This document shows positions 1-21,274 of a DNA stretch of 46,931 nt, in pieces (position 1 is the stretch's first letter; each line of letters opens with the position of its first letter). This DNA is from Candidatus Peregrinibacteria bacterium (GTDB lineage: Bacteria > Patescibacteriota > Gracilibacteria > UM-FILTER-43-11), in assembly GCA_016932505.1 (NCBI GenBank), contig JAFGCT010000003.1, positions 1-46,931 on the forward strand, written 5' to 3'. The notes under the pieces were generated by a model. That model ran no database searches, had not been told where the DNA came from, and saw only the letters and a list, made by a program, of their open reading frames with translations. The position numbers and the translations under genes were made by a program.

Positions 1-1244
1 ATAAGCAAGTAAACACCAAATGAACGCATGGTGTATTTTTGGAGGAATTTAATTAGGAAAGCGATTGCCATAAATGAGAATATGAACGATGCTATGAAGC
101 CATATAGTGTGAATTTTGTTTCTGGTACAATTACACCTTGGTCAATCGATATAAGTGCATAAACGTTTGCAGCGATTATTGCAATTCCTCCAAGCATAAA
201 TGAAAATTTAGCGGCAGCTTCACGTTTCAATCCTAGGATTACACCTGTTGCTATTGTAGAACCGGATCGAGAGACACCAGGTATAAGTGCTAGTGCTTGG
301 GCACAACCTATGAGTACTGATTTTTTTAATCCCACGGTTTCTTTGTCATTCTTTTTACCTTTCCATGCGGCATAAAAATAAAGGACTGCGAGAATAATAA
401 ACATTATAGCAATTGATGTTGTGTTACGAAGCGGACCAGTTACATAGCTACCAAACGCTAATCCTGCGAAGATTGCCGGTATTGTGCCGAGTACTAATTT
501 AAATGCGAGACTATTTTTATTAAAAGTCCATTTAGTTAACATCTTCCAGATTTCCTTTAGTACGCCAATCCAGTCTTTCCAAAAATATAAAAGAATTGCC
601 AATAGAGAGCCTCCATGAAGGAAGATATCGAACATAGCGAGCTGTTCAGGTTCTATTGGTAGGTGTAAGAACTGTTCCATTAAAACCAGATGTCCTGAGC
701 TGGAAATTGGAAGGAATTCGGTGATTCCTTGTAAGGCACCAAGAATTAATGCGCTCATGTCTGTTGTGGCGTAAAACTTTGTTTCAAAAAGGAATTTTCC
801 CGCGTAAGCACTAAATATATAGCGGGGGATTCGACCTATAATAATGGCTGGGATAAATTTCCTCAGAGGCATTTCAAATATACCTGCAGTCCACGTAATT
901 ATTTTGAAGGGTATTGGAGTAAGCCCTGCAACTATAACGCCCCATACGCCCCATTTTTTAATAAATTTTTCTTCTTTATCAAGATTTCTTTGTCCGAATA
1001 ACCATTTAACTACTGGGTGTCCAAGATATTTACCTAAGAAGTATCCTATAAGCGAGCCAAATACTGCAGAAATGGATACTATCCATAGTATTTTGGAAAA
1101 CGAAAGTCCAAGTCCTGTGCCAGTTGTTATGAATATATCTGCAGGAACGGGAAAAATAAATTGCTCTGCTGTTGTCAGGACAAAAATCCCACCATAGCCG
1201 TAGTTCATTATTATTCCTTTTGCAAATTCAATTAATGTGTCCAT
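1..1244 (-). CDS. uppP: DedA-family / undecaprenyl-diphosphatase (UppP) fusion, 3' end cut by window edge
   Basis: One open minus-strand frame runs from ATG at 1244 off the left edge (414 codons visible, no stop). Residues 1-162 form a DedA/VTT-type (YqaA-like) membrane domain with TPIPFKIITWTAGIFEMP and GRIPRYIFSAYAG. An internal Met at residue 163 (position 758) starts a nearly full-length UppP domain with its two signature motifs: QGITEFLPISSSGHL (catalytic-type Glu about residue 176) and IPGVSRSGST (Arg about residue 326). The two parts are in the same frame: 1244 and 758 differ by 162 codons, and I read through the junction codon by codon without a stop. UppP dephosphorylates undecaprenyl diphosphate at the outer face of the membrane. 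DedA members have been reported as undecaprenyl-phosphate translocases. About 10-15 UppP residues should lie beyond the edge. No Shine-Dalgarno is visible. An internal start at 758 could also yield UppP alone. Confidence 0.9.
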   Translation of the reverse strand, partial: MDTLIEFAKGIIMNYGYGGIFVLTTAEQFIFPVPADIFITTGTGLGLSFSKILWIVSISAVFGSLIGYFLGKYLGHPVVKWLFGQRNLDKEEKFIKKWGVWGVIVAGLTPIPFKIITWTAGIFEMPLRKFIPAIIIGRIPRYIFSAYAGKFLFETKFYATTDMSALILGALQGITEFLPISSSGHLVLMEQFLHLPIEPEQLAMFDIFLHGGSLLAILLYFWKDWIGVLKEIWKMLTKWTFNKNSLAFKLVLGTIPAIFAGLAFGSYVTGPLRNTTSIAIMFIILAVLYFYAAWKGKKNDKETVGLKKSVLIGCAQALALIPGVSRSGSTIATGVILGLKREAAAKFSFMLGGIAIIAANVYALISIDQGVIVPETKFTLYGFIASFIFSFMAIAFLIKFLQKYTMRSFGVYLL

Positions 1245-1363: not shown

Positions 1364-2611
1364 TTAATTATTTCCGTTCATTTTAGTAATAACCACTTTC
1401 TCAATTTTCTTTTTACTCATAACGGTTACACGAATTTCAAATCCCTCTTGTTGAATAATTTCGCCTTCATTAGGGAAGCCCTGAAGTTTTTCGAGTATCA
1501 GAAGGCTGATTGTTTGATGTTCTGGATAATTGAATTTAGTCTTTAATTCAGTGTTTAATTCTTCAATAGTTGCATCACCATCTACTTCCCATTCGTTTTT
1601 ACCAATTTTTTTAACCGAGCTTTCTTCGCGGTCTTTTTCATCTGCAATATCACCGACAATTTCCTCTAATATATCTTCAAGGGTAACAAGTCCGACAATT
1701 TTACCATGTTCGTCAACAACCAATGCAATATGATGTCTGCGTTTTTTGAATTCTAGAAAAAGCTTATTGATTGATTTTGTTTTAGGGACAATTATTACTT
1801 TTTGATAATGAAGGTCTTCAAGTGTTTTATATTCACCTGGATTATTCATTAAGCGTACAACATCATGTACAGTTACAATTCCAATCACATTATCTGAATT
1901 CCCTTTAAATACAGGGATTCTTGAATGCGTATGTTCAACAAAAAAGTGTGCAGCGTTTTGAATAGTGGTATCAGCTGAAATCATTTCGATATCTTTTGCG
2001 ATTGTCATTACTTCTTCAACATTTGTATCAGTAAATTCCAGTACGTTTTCTATAAATTCCTGTTCGTGCTCTTCAATAACACCTTCTTTTGTGCCAATAT
2101 CAACCATAGCAAGAAGCTCTTCTTCACTCATTGTACTCATTGGATTCTGAGCATTGAAAATTCGCATTAGGCTGTGAATAAATTTATTTAGTAGCCATAC
2201 AATTGGATAAAGTAAATACGTAAACCATAAAAGGGGATTAGCCATTATTCTCGAAAATCCTTCTGCGTGTTTTTGTGCAAATGTTTTTGGTGTGATTTCT
2301 CCAAATACTAAAATTATAAAAGTTAGAACACCTGTTACAATTCCTATGGCATTGTCTCCAAATTCTGATAGTCCCCAAACAGTAGCAACTACAGTTGCTA
2401 AAATGTTTACAAGGTTATTACCTATAAGGATTGTAATAAGAAGCCTTTCAGGTTTGCTTTTTAACTTAAAAACGGCCTTTGATCCAAAGCGTTTATCGTT
2501 TTTTAAAGTTTTTACCTTTGCAGGTGTTAGCGAGGTTAAGGCAATTTCTGCTCCGGAGAATGCTCCTGAAAGAATAATAAGAATTAATAGGAGCACTAAG
2601 CTACTTTCCAC
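1364..2611 (-). CDS. CorC/HlyC (CNNM/MpfA-like) CBS-domain membrane protein
   Basis: 415 aa, the usual size for the DUF21-CBS-CBS-CorC family. Residues 1-185 are hydrophobic with several membrane segments (DUF21/CNNM), beginning with SGAFSGAEIALTSLTPAKV. A CBS pair follows at about 205-325 (SRIPVFKGNSDNVIGIVTVHDV and HIALVVDEHGKIVGLVTLED). A CorC/HlyC transporter-associated domain ends the protein, about 345-410. Family members act in Mg2+ efflux or magnesium/cobalt homeostasis at the cytoplasmic membrane; the substrate cannot be read from sequence. The gene lies 119 bp from the DedA-UppP gene, separated by a word array, so co-transcription is uncertain. It is divergent from argS. Confidence 0.9.
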   Translation of the reverse strand: MESSLVLLLILIILSGAFSGAEIALTSLTPAKVKTLKNDKRFGSKAVFKLKSKPERLLITILIGNNLVNILATVVATVWGLSEFGDNAIGIVTGVLTFIILVFGEITPKTFAQKHAEGFSRIMANPLLWFTYLLYPIVWLLNKFIHSLMRIFNAQNPMSTMSEEELLAMVDIGTKEGVIEEHEQEFIENVLEFTDTNVEEVMTIAKDIEMISADTTIQNAAHFFVEHTHSRIPVFKGNSDNVIGIVTVHDVVRLMNNPGEYKTLEDLHYQKVIIVPKTKSINKLFLEFKKRRHHIALVVDEHGKIVGLVTLEDILEEIVGDIADEKDREESSVKKIGKNEWEVDGDATIEELNTELKTKFNYPEHQTISLLILEKLQGFPNEGEIIQQEGFEIRVTVMSKKKIEKVVITKMNGNN

Positions 2612-19246: not shown

Positions 19247-21274
19247 TTATTTACTATCTATTTCCTCTTTAAACTCGATAGTTTTAATTGCCATTTTTGC
19301 CATTTCCGCTCTTGTTATGTTAGATGCTGGATCGAATGCGAAGTTAACAATGACTCCGCTTTTTAAACGTCTTCCATCCACTAATCCTTTTTCAATGGCA
19401 TAATGAACAGCAGGGTAATACCATTGGTCTGTTTCTAGGTCCCTGAAGTTGTCTGTACGTTTGCCAACATCTTCAACATCAAATCCAAAGGCGTTCATTA
19501 ATATTTTAATTGCTTCCACTTTTATAATTGGTTGGTCTGGCTTAAAAGTTCCGTCTGGGTAACCATGTATAAGACCTATCTCTTTGGCTCTCTTAATATA
19601 TGCAGAATACCACGCATAAATCGGGACATCTTCGAATGGAGCTTTTTTGACTTCTTGATTTAAATCAATTTCTTCACCGATGGACTTAAGGGCAATTTTG
19701 ATAAATTCTGCTCTAGTTAAATAGTCATCAGGGGCAAATATTCCTTGATCTCGACCTTTAACAATATCCATTCTATAGAGTTCTTCAATATAATTATGTG
19801 CCCAGTGATTCACTACATCTGTGAATACTGTTTTATTGTAATTACGTCCTTCCTGCGCAACGAAGAACGAATCGTTTTTATCGGATATTATTGTTACTGT
19901 TCTTTGATTTTCATTTACAGTAACTAGCGATTTGGTATATTCGGTAAATTTTTCAGTCTTTGGGTCATAGCTGAAAACAACAACTGGAACACCTTCATCA
20001 AAACGGTCAGAAAAAGGAATTGTAATTTTGTATGCTGGTGAAAAAGTTAAATCTTCATCCATTTCACTTTGAAACTTAAATATCCATTTAAATGTGTATC
20101 CGAAGTGAATTGGAAAATCTTTTGAATAAAGATTTACAGGGGGGAGAATGTATCCAGCAAATGCCCTTCCATCTTTGCGTGAAATTTTTGTATCTCGTTC
20201 AAATTCAATTACTGTTCCTCTTACAAGATCTTTAAAAATAATAGGGCGGGGGATTATACCTTTATGTTCCGATGTAATATAAAGTGCGGGTTTTGTACTT
20301 ATGGTCATAGGTGTTTCTGAACCAAATAGAGGTGCTGTTGCTGCATTTGCTTTGAAATCATCGGCTGCATTCTGATCTACAACACATACATTTTCTATTA
20401 GTTTATACCCATAATTACACTCCTGAATTTGGCAGGTGGGATAAGGTGAAACTTTAATTGAATTTAATTTTTCAGCACATTCGAATTTGTATTCCTGACT
20501 CATAATTGCAGTTGAATTGCCTTTTTCATCAACACCAAAATATTGAAGGATGCCGTTTTTATCGATAGTAATAGATGTGCTGAATAATGGGCTTGTTGTA
20601 GAGGGGCGACTTCCATCTATTGTGTAATATATTTTTGCACCTAAGTCGATGTTTTCATCGCTTCCGGTATATTCATCAATGTAGGGGGTCAGAATAATCG
20701 ATTGAGGGTAATTATATGTTCCTGCTGCGGGTTTTGGTACTATTGTAGGTGCAGTATGATCTAAGTAGTCTCCTGTAGTAAATGAGCGAACATATAATTC
20801 TGACATTCTATTCCCAACTAAATCCTTAATATTGTTAATTATTAAAGAATGTTTTTCATTTCCAACAAGATCATCATCAATGCTTACAGTTAGAGTCTTG
20901 CCATCTTCATGAAGGTCAAAATCTATGGGAAATTCAGTTAAAAACTGTTTGAATTGAATATTGGTCTTGTTAATAGATTTAGGATCAACTTTTTCGGAAA
21001 AAGTAACAGTGATTTCGTCCGTTATAGTTTGAATATTTTCTGCATTTTCTGCAATTGATACTTCTGTTACTTCAGGTGGAGTCATATCTTCAATCATGCA
21101 GTACGCACTGCATCCGTCACGGTTTATAAAGTTATAATCGTCGCATTCTTCACCCAAATCTTCGTTTAATATACCGTCTCCGCAATAGCTATCTGCACCC
21201 ATTCCGATTGGAATGAATGAAAATGTGGAAATCAAAATTATTAATAGGATTTTTGATATGTGTTTTTTCATCAT
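19247..21274 (-). CDS. Surface protein with DUF4215 Cys repeat, Ig-like, chitobiase-C-type and three SLH domains
   Basis: 675 aa. Residues 1-27 are a signal peptide. A DUF4215-type cysteine module follows (CGDGILNEDLGEECDD, DGCSAYC; about 31-64). Next are a Big_5/SbsA-like Ig domain (about 67-170, ITVTFSEKVDPKS), a chitobiase C-terminal-like beta domain (about 178-262, KIYYTIDGSRPSTTSPLF), a further Cys-bearing linker, a beta region, and three S-layer homology repeats at about 485-665 (VVNHWAHNYIEELYRMDIV, DVPIYAWYSAYIKRAKEIGL, WYYPAVHYAIEKGLVDG). SLH domains tether proteins to cell-wall polymers. It is encoded 32 bp after efp on the same strand. Confidence 0.9.
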   Translation of the reverse strand: MMKKHISKILLIILISTFSFIPIGMGADSYCGDGILNEDLGEECDDYNFINRDGCSAYCMIEDMTPPEVTEVSIAENAENIQTITDEITVTFSEKVDPKSINKTNIQFKQFLTEFPIDFDLHEDGKTLTVSIDDDLVGNEKHSLIINNIKDLVGNRMSELYVRSFTTGDYLDHTAPTIVPKPAAGTYNYPQSIILTPYIDEYTGSDENIDLGAKIYYTIDGSRPSTTSPLFSTSITIDKNGILQYFGVDEKGNSTAIMSQEYKFECAEKLNSIKVSPYPTCQIQECNYGYKLIENVCVVDQNAADDFKANAATAPLFGSETPMTISTKPALYITSEHKGIIPRPIIFKDLVRGTVIEFERDTKISRKDGRAFAGYILPPVNLYSKDFPIHFGYTFKWIFKFQSEMDEDLTFSPAYKITIPFSDRFDEGVPVVVFSYDPKTEKFTEYTKSLVTVNENQRTVTIISDKNDSFFVAQEGRNYNKTVFTDVVNHWAHNYIEELYRMDIVKGRDQGIFAPDDYLTRAEFIKIALKSIGEEIDLNQEVKKAPFEDVPIYAWYSAYIKRAKEIGLIHGYPDGTFKPDQPIIKVEAIKILMNAFGFDVEDVGKRTDNFRDLETDQWYYPAVHYAIEKGLVDGRRLKSGVIVNFAFDPASNITRAEMAKMAIKTIEFKEEIDSK

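Follow-up and report, generated by a model that had tools for sequence, protein, structure and literature searches.

DedA-PAP2, DUF368-PAP2, and DUF368-BacA fusions have been published (PMC9876793, PMC10127716). VTT-domain paralogs elsewhere act alone as flippases (PMC9876793, PMC10127716), and those of COG0586 depend on an acidic pair located within the first re-entrant helix and on two arginines in the second (PMC10127716). The COG1238 (YqaA) branch, for which almost no positive residues were reported in that region and whose substrate is unknown, was judged unlikely to flip undecaprenyl phosphate, with other lipids being proposed as cargo (PMC10127716). In the solved structures of the phosphatase UppP (BacA), both termini lie in the periplasm and the fold shows an inverted repeat like that of transporters; it has been suggested that the enzyme itself flips the undecaprenyl phosphate it makes (PMC5852022, PMC5861054). 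The fusion described below bears on which DedA proteins flip this lipid and on how flipping is coupled to dephosphorylation.

Here, we analysed a stretch of 46,931 nucleotides from a Candidatus Peregrinibacteria bacterium (contig JAFGCT010000003.1; hereafter referred to as the window). A sequence-only reading had placed at its left edge a DedA-family domain fused in frame to UppP.

The fused gene and its conservation across the order

The minus-strand frame that starts with the ATG at position 1244 runs to the window edge through 414 codons with zero stops (Table 1). Pfam identified both domains, bearing out the single frame that had been described as DedA/VTT followed by UppP with its motifs: VTT_dom (PF09335) had an E-value of 2e-17 and 64-68 bits, above the curated cut-off of 33.9, and BacA/UppP (PF02673) at residues 165-413 had an E-value of 2e-72 and 244.6 bits against a cut-off of 33.4. 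Because the window begins at the first base of its contig, UppP is cut by about 12 C-terminal residues, and the end that the sequence-only reading had suggested seeking to the left of position 1 lies beyond the contig. Complete relatives of the fusion are 424-428 amino acids long. The equivalog model TIGR00753 gave 202.8-205.3 bits against a cut-off of 217.5 for this query, whose C-terminus is cut by the contig end. In an alignment of 16 fusion sequences, Q172, E176, S182, H185, S325, and R326 were invariant (16 out of 16). Strong homology in fold, motifs, and catalytic residues marks the UppP half as a putative undecaprenyl-diphosphatase. We found no second UppP in the window's genome, and Pfam detected no PF04018 (DUF368/PopT) domain in the fusion protein. 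The neighbouring CNNM/CBS/CorC_HlyC gene adjoins the fusion gene in the nearest relative as well (G007, locus L003), in the same order. Elsewhere in the window, positions 19247-21274 encode a probable surface protein of 675 residues, in which S-layer homology, Big_5, and chitobiase C-terminal domains were recognised.

Table 1. Coordinates of the fusion gene, its parts, and its upstream neighbour in the window, and of the reverse-order fusions at other loci
Feature	Coordinates	Strand	Remarks
VTT-UppP fusion gene	3..1244	-	414 of ~426 codons; contig edge cuts 3' end
N-terminal VTT domain and linker	757..1244	-	Residues 1-162; Pfam VTT_dom at 34-150; YqaA-like; E27/D36 acidic pair, K114, R138
Short linker	756..782	-	About residues 155-163, FETKFYATTDM region; predicted periplasmic
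UppP/BacA domain	3..755	-	Residues 164-414; QxxxE at 172-176, SSSGH (S182, H185), PGVSRSG (S325, R326)
CNNM/CBS/CorC_HlyC membrane protein gene	1364..2611	-	Upstream of fusion gene, co-oriented; context only
Reverse UppP-VTT fusions	L063:1173-2933; L064:479-1897; L065:2040-3656; L066:2085-3623; L068:2485-3789		

The order of the window's genome is represented by 18 genomes in 12 genera of one family. The same two domains occurred in one frame without a stop in 17 of them (11 of the 12 genera); the frame is thus continuous across the junction, as had been claimed, and the same domain order recurs in related genomes, where it was to be sought. The 18th genome, 89% complete, gave zero matches. 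Across the 17 fusion genomes, identity of the relatives to the window protein ranged from 72% down to 51%, and the two halves were similarly constrained (mean identity, 54% and 60%). Two fusion contigs are public Patescibacteria MAG records (JAJDCF010000015.1 and JAHJFD010000002.1), and no fusions turned up on plasmids. The position of the gene at a contig end could point to a frameshift or an assembly error, but the same frame in 17 independent assemblies rules this out with near certainty.

Two separate proteins might also be made from the joined frame, either if translation starts internally at Met163 (position 758) or if the linker is cleaved. Indeed, Met163 corresponds to the position at which UppP usually begins and was kept in 13 of 16 sequences. 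However, three genomes with a frame that is still open have Thr, Ala, or Leu in its place, no Shine-Dalgarno-like stretch precedes it, and the linker itself, (T/S)KFYA(T/S)T, is mostly conserved among relatives. We therefore disfavour the internal start and regard the production of two proteins as very improbable. The conserved linker, together with the replacement of Met163, indicates that the junction serves as protein.

Separate gene pairs and a fusion in the opposite order

Our survey sample comprised 353 genomes of the class and 380 sampled from the phylum, all within the phylum. Among the best ~150 matches listed, single-row full-length matches were found only in the window's family. UppP was free-standing in most surveyed genomes, and outside this family, apart from the reverse-order fusions described below, VTT and UppP were separate genes, sometimes adjacent or overlapping. 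Separate genes in related genomes had been named as a finding that would speak against the fusion; they do occur, but only outside the order, where they locate its origin and do not refute it. In G018 and G031, the VTT stop and the UppP start overlap as ATGA (L072:2368-2371 and L073:1788-1791, respectively), which points to translational coupling. A VTT gene lies just upstream of UppP in G027 and G183. A VTT gene was present inside the 1.5-kb flanks of 4 out of 36 UppP loci chosen by UppP similarity alone, directly upstream in three of these cases. In the VTT tree, the fused domains formed one clade (support 99/96), which joined the VTTs next to UppP in G027, G018, and G031 and one non-neighbour VTT of G025 in a larger group (84/97). 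Taking these overlapping and adjacent genes together with the tree, we infer that the VTT-UppP fusion probably arose in an ancestor of the order from two overlapping genes that merged into a single frame.

Several other arrangements came to light in this survey. G027 carries a consecutive trio (L071:532-2651) consisting of a YqaA-like VTT, UppP, and a second DedA with COG0586 motifs. Three candidate fusions among long UppP frames were rejected: L067 (G183) has separate VTT and UppP genes with a stop between them, L069 (G194) is a UppP whose frame reads through upstream, and L070 (G255) has a different C-terminal stretch. In the last of these (L070:2097-3407), UppP is followed by about 190 in-frame residues that are not VTT-like and have no Pfam match. 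In-frame TGA codons were observed within VTT matches of G026, G030, G039, G046, and G056 (families f10 and f14), which suggests that some members of the class have recoded TGA; none was seen in the window's family.

A single frame with UppP first and VTT second was found in G187, G213, G228, G209, and G251, which represent five genera of family f5 in the same class. Pfam confirmed both domains in four of the five, and the VTT part in G251 was recognised with a local profile and through a full-length match. In the tree, the VTT domains of these reverse fusions were placed among COG0586 proteins, and they have an arginine of the second re-entrant helix of COG0586. An AU test on a common clade rejected one shared origin of both fusion orders (p-AU 5.5e-6). 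The VTT subfamilies differ as well, and VTT has thus become joined to UppP on at least two occasions, in opposite orders. Two such independent fusions, from different VTT branches, are stronger evidence of joint function than one fusion, and they speak strongly, on genomic grounds, for the two steps of carrier recycling belonging together.

The VTT half and its proposed role in carrier-lipid recycling

The acidic pair at the tip of the first re-entrant helix was complete in the aligned fusions, with E27 in 16 out of 16 and D or E at position 36 in 16 out of 16. The two UptA/COG0586 arginines of the second re-entrant helix were absent, with Gly and Phe in their place, so that the earlier caution about a YqaA-like domain was well placed. 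K114 stands next to the second arginine position in 13 of 16 sequences, and R138, in the next helix, was invariant. The NCBIfam UptA equivalog models scored 31-36 bits, far under their cut-offs of 250-300. YqaA-family proteins were the nearest reference sequences to the fused VTT in the tree, in which it grouped with Xanthomonas, Azospirillum, and haloarchaeal members at 94/76, while E. coli YqaA fell apart from them. The motifs ExxxFPxPxD and TPIPxK are common to the fused VTT and the Xanthomonas and Azospirillum proteins (L121:523-1137 and L122:520-1098); E. coli YqaA itself has no TPIPxK. The published lack of positive residues thus fails for this subset of COG1238.

The loop between the first membrane helix and the second re-entrant helix of the VTT half averages 5.3 K/R and the linker 1.6; this charge bias indicates that the VTT half ends outside, as the N-terminus of UppP requires. 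The corresponding loop of the reverse fusions contains 4-9 K/R and the UppP-VTT junction 0-3, and a basic tail follows an extra C-terminal helix in four out of five; the VTT half of the window-type fusion does not have this helix. Both fusion orders fit the known UppP topology with its periplasmic termini. An AlphaFold model of the fusion had a mean pLDDT of 84.5 and a pTM of 0.64, too low to trust the relative placement of the halves. Its UppP half matched solved BacA (TMt 0.79-0.82), and no solved structure resembling the VTT half was found by sequence or fold.

PAP2 and DUF368 were absent from the window's own draft genome. Of the 15 family members tested for each domain, 13 had no PAP2 and 13 had no DUF368; three further members also had no DUF368. 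The fusion was the only VTT protein detected in G004, G009, G010, G016, and G017 (5 out of 17), none of which had DUF368; these drafts are 86-95% complete. Single absences in drafts are weak evidence, but the pattern repeats across genomes. MurJ is present in the window's genome, which should therefore use the carrier lipid, and was found in four of the five genomes with the fusion as their only VTT protein, but not in G016. Besides the fusion, the window's genome encodes one clear VTT protein, which is COG0398-like. Two weak PF09335 matches, on contigs C13 and C14, were not convincing as DedA proteins, and the one on C13 looks by eye like an ArsP-type permease. In G003 (contig C9; L165:1-1971), a frame exceeding 650 residues also has a COG0398-like VTT domain at its C-terminal end.

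We think it fairly probable that the fusion is an inner-membrane protein that carries out the last two steps of carrier-lipid recycling. The UppP half would hydrolyse undecaprenyl pyrophosphate to undecaprenyl phosphate at the outer face, and the VTT half would most likely then return this product to the cytoplasmic leaflet, a step in which the E27/D36 pair may form the proton-linked site, while K114/R138, close to the second re-entrant loop, may contact the phosphate. Joining would hold product and transporter together and supply both at equal dose. Several results support such a role: the single-frame fusion is kept in 17 genomes even at the lowest identity; an independent reverse fusion exists, as do adjacent or ATGA-overlapping genes in sister families; the window's genome has MurJ without PAP2 or DUF368, and five genomes have no other VTT; and the UppP active site is invariant in a half that resembles BacA, behind a linker placed outside by its charge bias. 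It is weakened by the missing UptA arginines, by UptA scores below cut-off, by the published judgement on COG1238, by the proposal that UppP flips its own product, and by the incompleteness of the drafts on which the status of only VTT rests. The sequence-only proposal that one polypeptide may make undecaprenyl phosphate and flip it back is plausible, and the functional link behind it is well supported.

The VTT half may instead have another role. It might move or scramble another lipid, either a phospholipid or an uncharged one, with the fusion merely tying its expression to that of UppP; a YqaA-like branch without the UptA arginines, and the other-lipid cargo proposed for COG1238 (PMC10127716), would agree with this. 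However, two independent fusions in opposite orders, built from different VTT subfamilies, are hard to attribute to co-expression alone, and five genomes would retain no other VTT or DUF368 for flipping, so that we judge this explanation unlikely. Still less probable, in our estimation, is that the VTT half is no transporter and aids the folding, dimerisation, or substrate gathering of UppP, with UppP or another protein doing the flipping. The inverted repeat of UppP and the flipping suggested for it (PMC5852022, PMC5861054) speak for such a helper, as does the lack of the extra C-terminal helix in the VTT half; the conserved E27/D36 pair and invariant R138, as a working site would show, and the VTT paralogs that flip alone elsewhere (PMC9876793, PMC10127716) speak against it.

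Within the recycling role, we tentatively propose that the YqaA-type VTT is a genuine carrier-lipid flippase that uses another basic site (K114/R138), and that it works in this order only as part of UppP, one polypeptide providing the sole recycling route. The two independent fusions put forward a YqaA-type domain as a candidate flippase, contrary to current opinion. The fusion would then be the likely sole route of carrier recycling in a set of reduced-genome bacteria, and a single protein of 426 residues would offer a compact system for assaying both steps in one preparation.

Comparison with described systems

The VTT-UppP pair is not named in the main texts of PMC9876793 or PMC10127716, and we found no description of an order-wide, twice-made VTT-UppP fusion in the literature searched (mostly non-subscription, main texts). 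Compared with UppP/BacA (PF02673; PDB 5OON and 6CB2), the fusion has the same fold, the QxxxE, SSSGH, and PGxSR motifs, and all catalytic residues; E. coli UppP is free-standing, whereas the fusion bears an N-terminal VTT domain. Its likeness to the UptA/COG0586 flippases lies in a VTT domain above the Pfam cut-off and the acidic pair at the first re-entrant tip, and it differs from them in having neither the two second-helix arginines nor the extra C-terminal helix and in far lower UptA scores. YqaA/COG1238 is nearest to the fused VTT in the tree, and its Xanthomonas and Azospirillum members have both motifs in common with it; unlike the fusion, COG1238 proteins are reported to be 99% single-domain (PMC10127716), and the TPIPxK motif is missing from E. 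coli YqaA, which stands apart in the tree.

With the published fusions, the locus shares the concept of an undecaprenyl pyrophosphate phosphatase and a carrier-lipid translocase-family domain in one frame, the translocase role being a predicted one here. The Rosetta-stone link drawn by the sequence-only reading is accordingly well supported as a functional link but not new, since DedA-PAP2 and DUF368-BacA preceded it (PMC9876793, PMC10127716). The published cases join other pairs; here UppP and VTT are joined, in two opposite orders. The fusion concept is thus known, and the VTT-UppP pair in two orders is a new variant of it.
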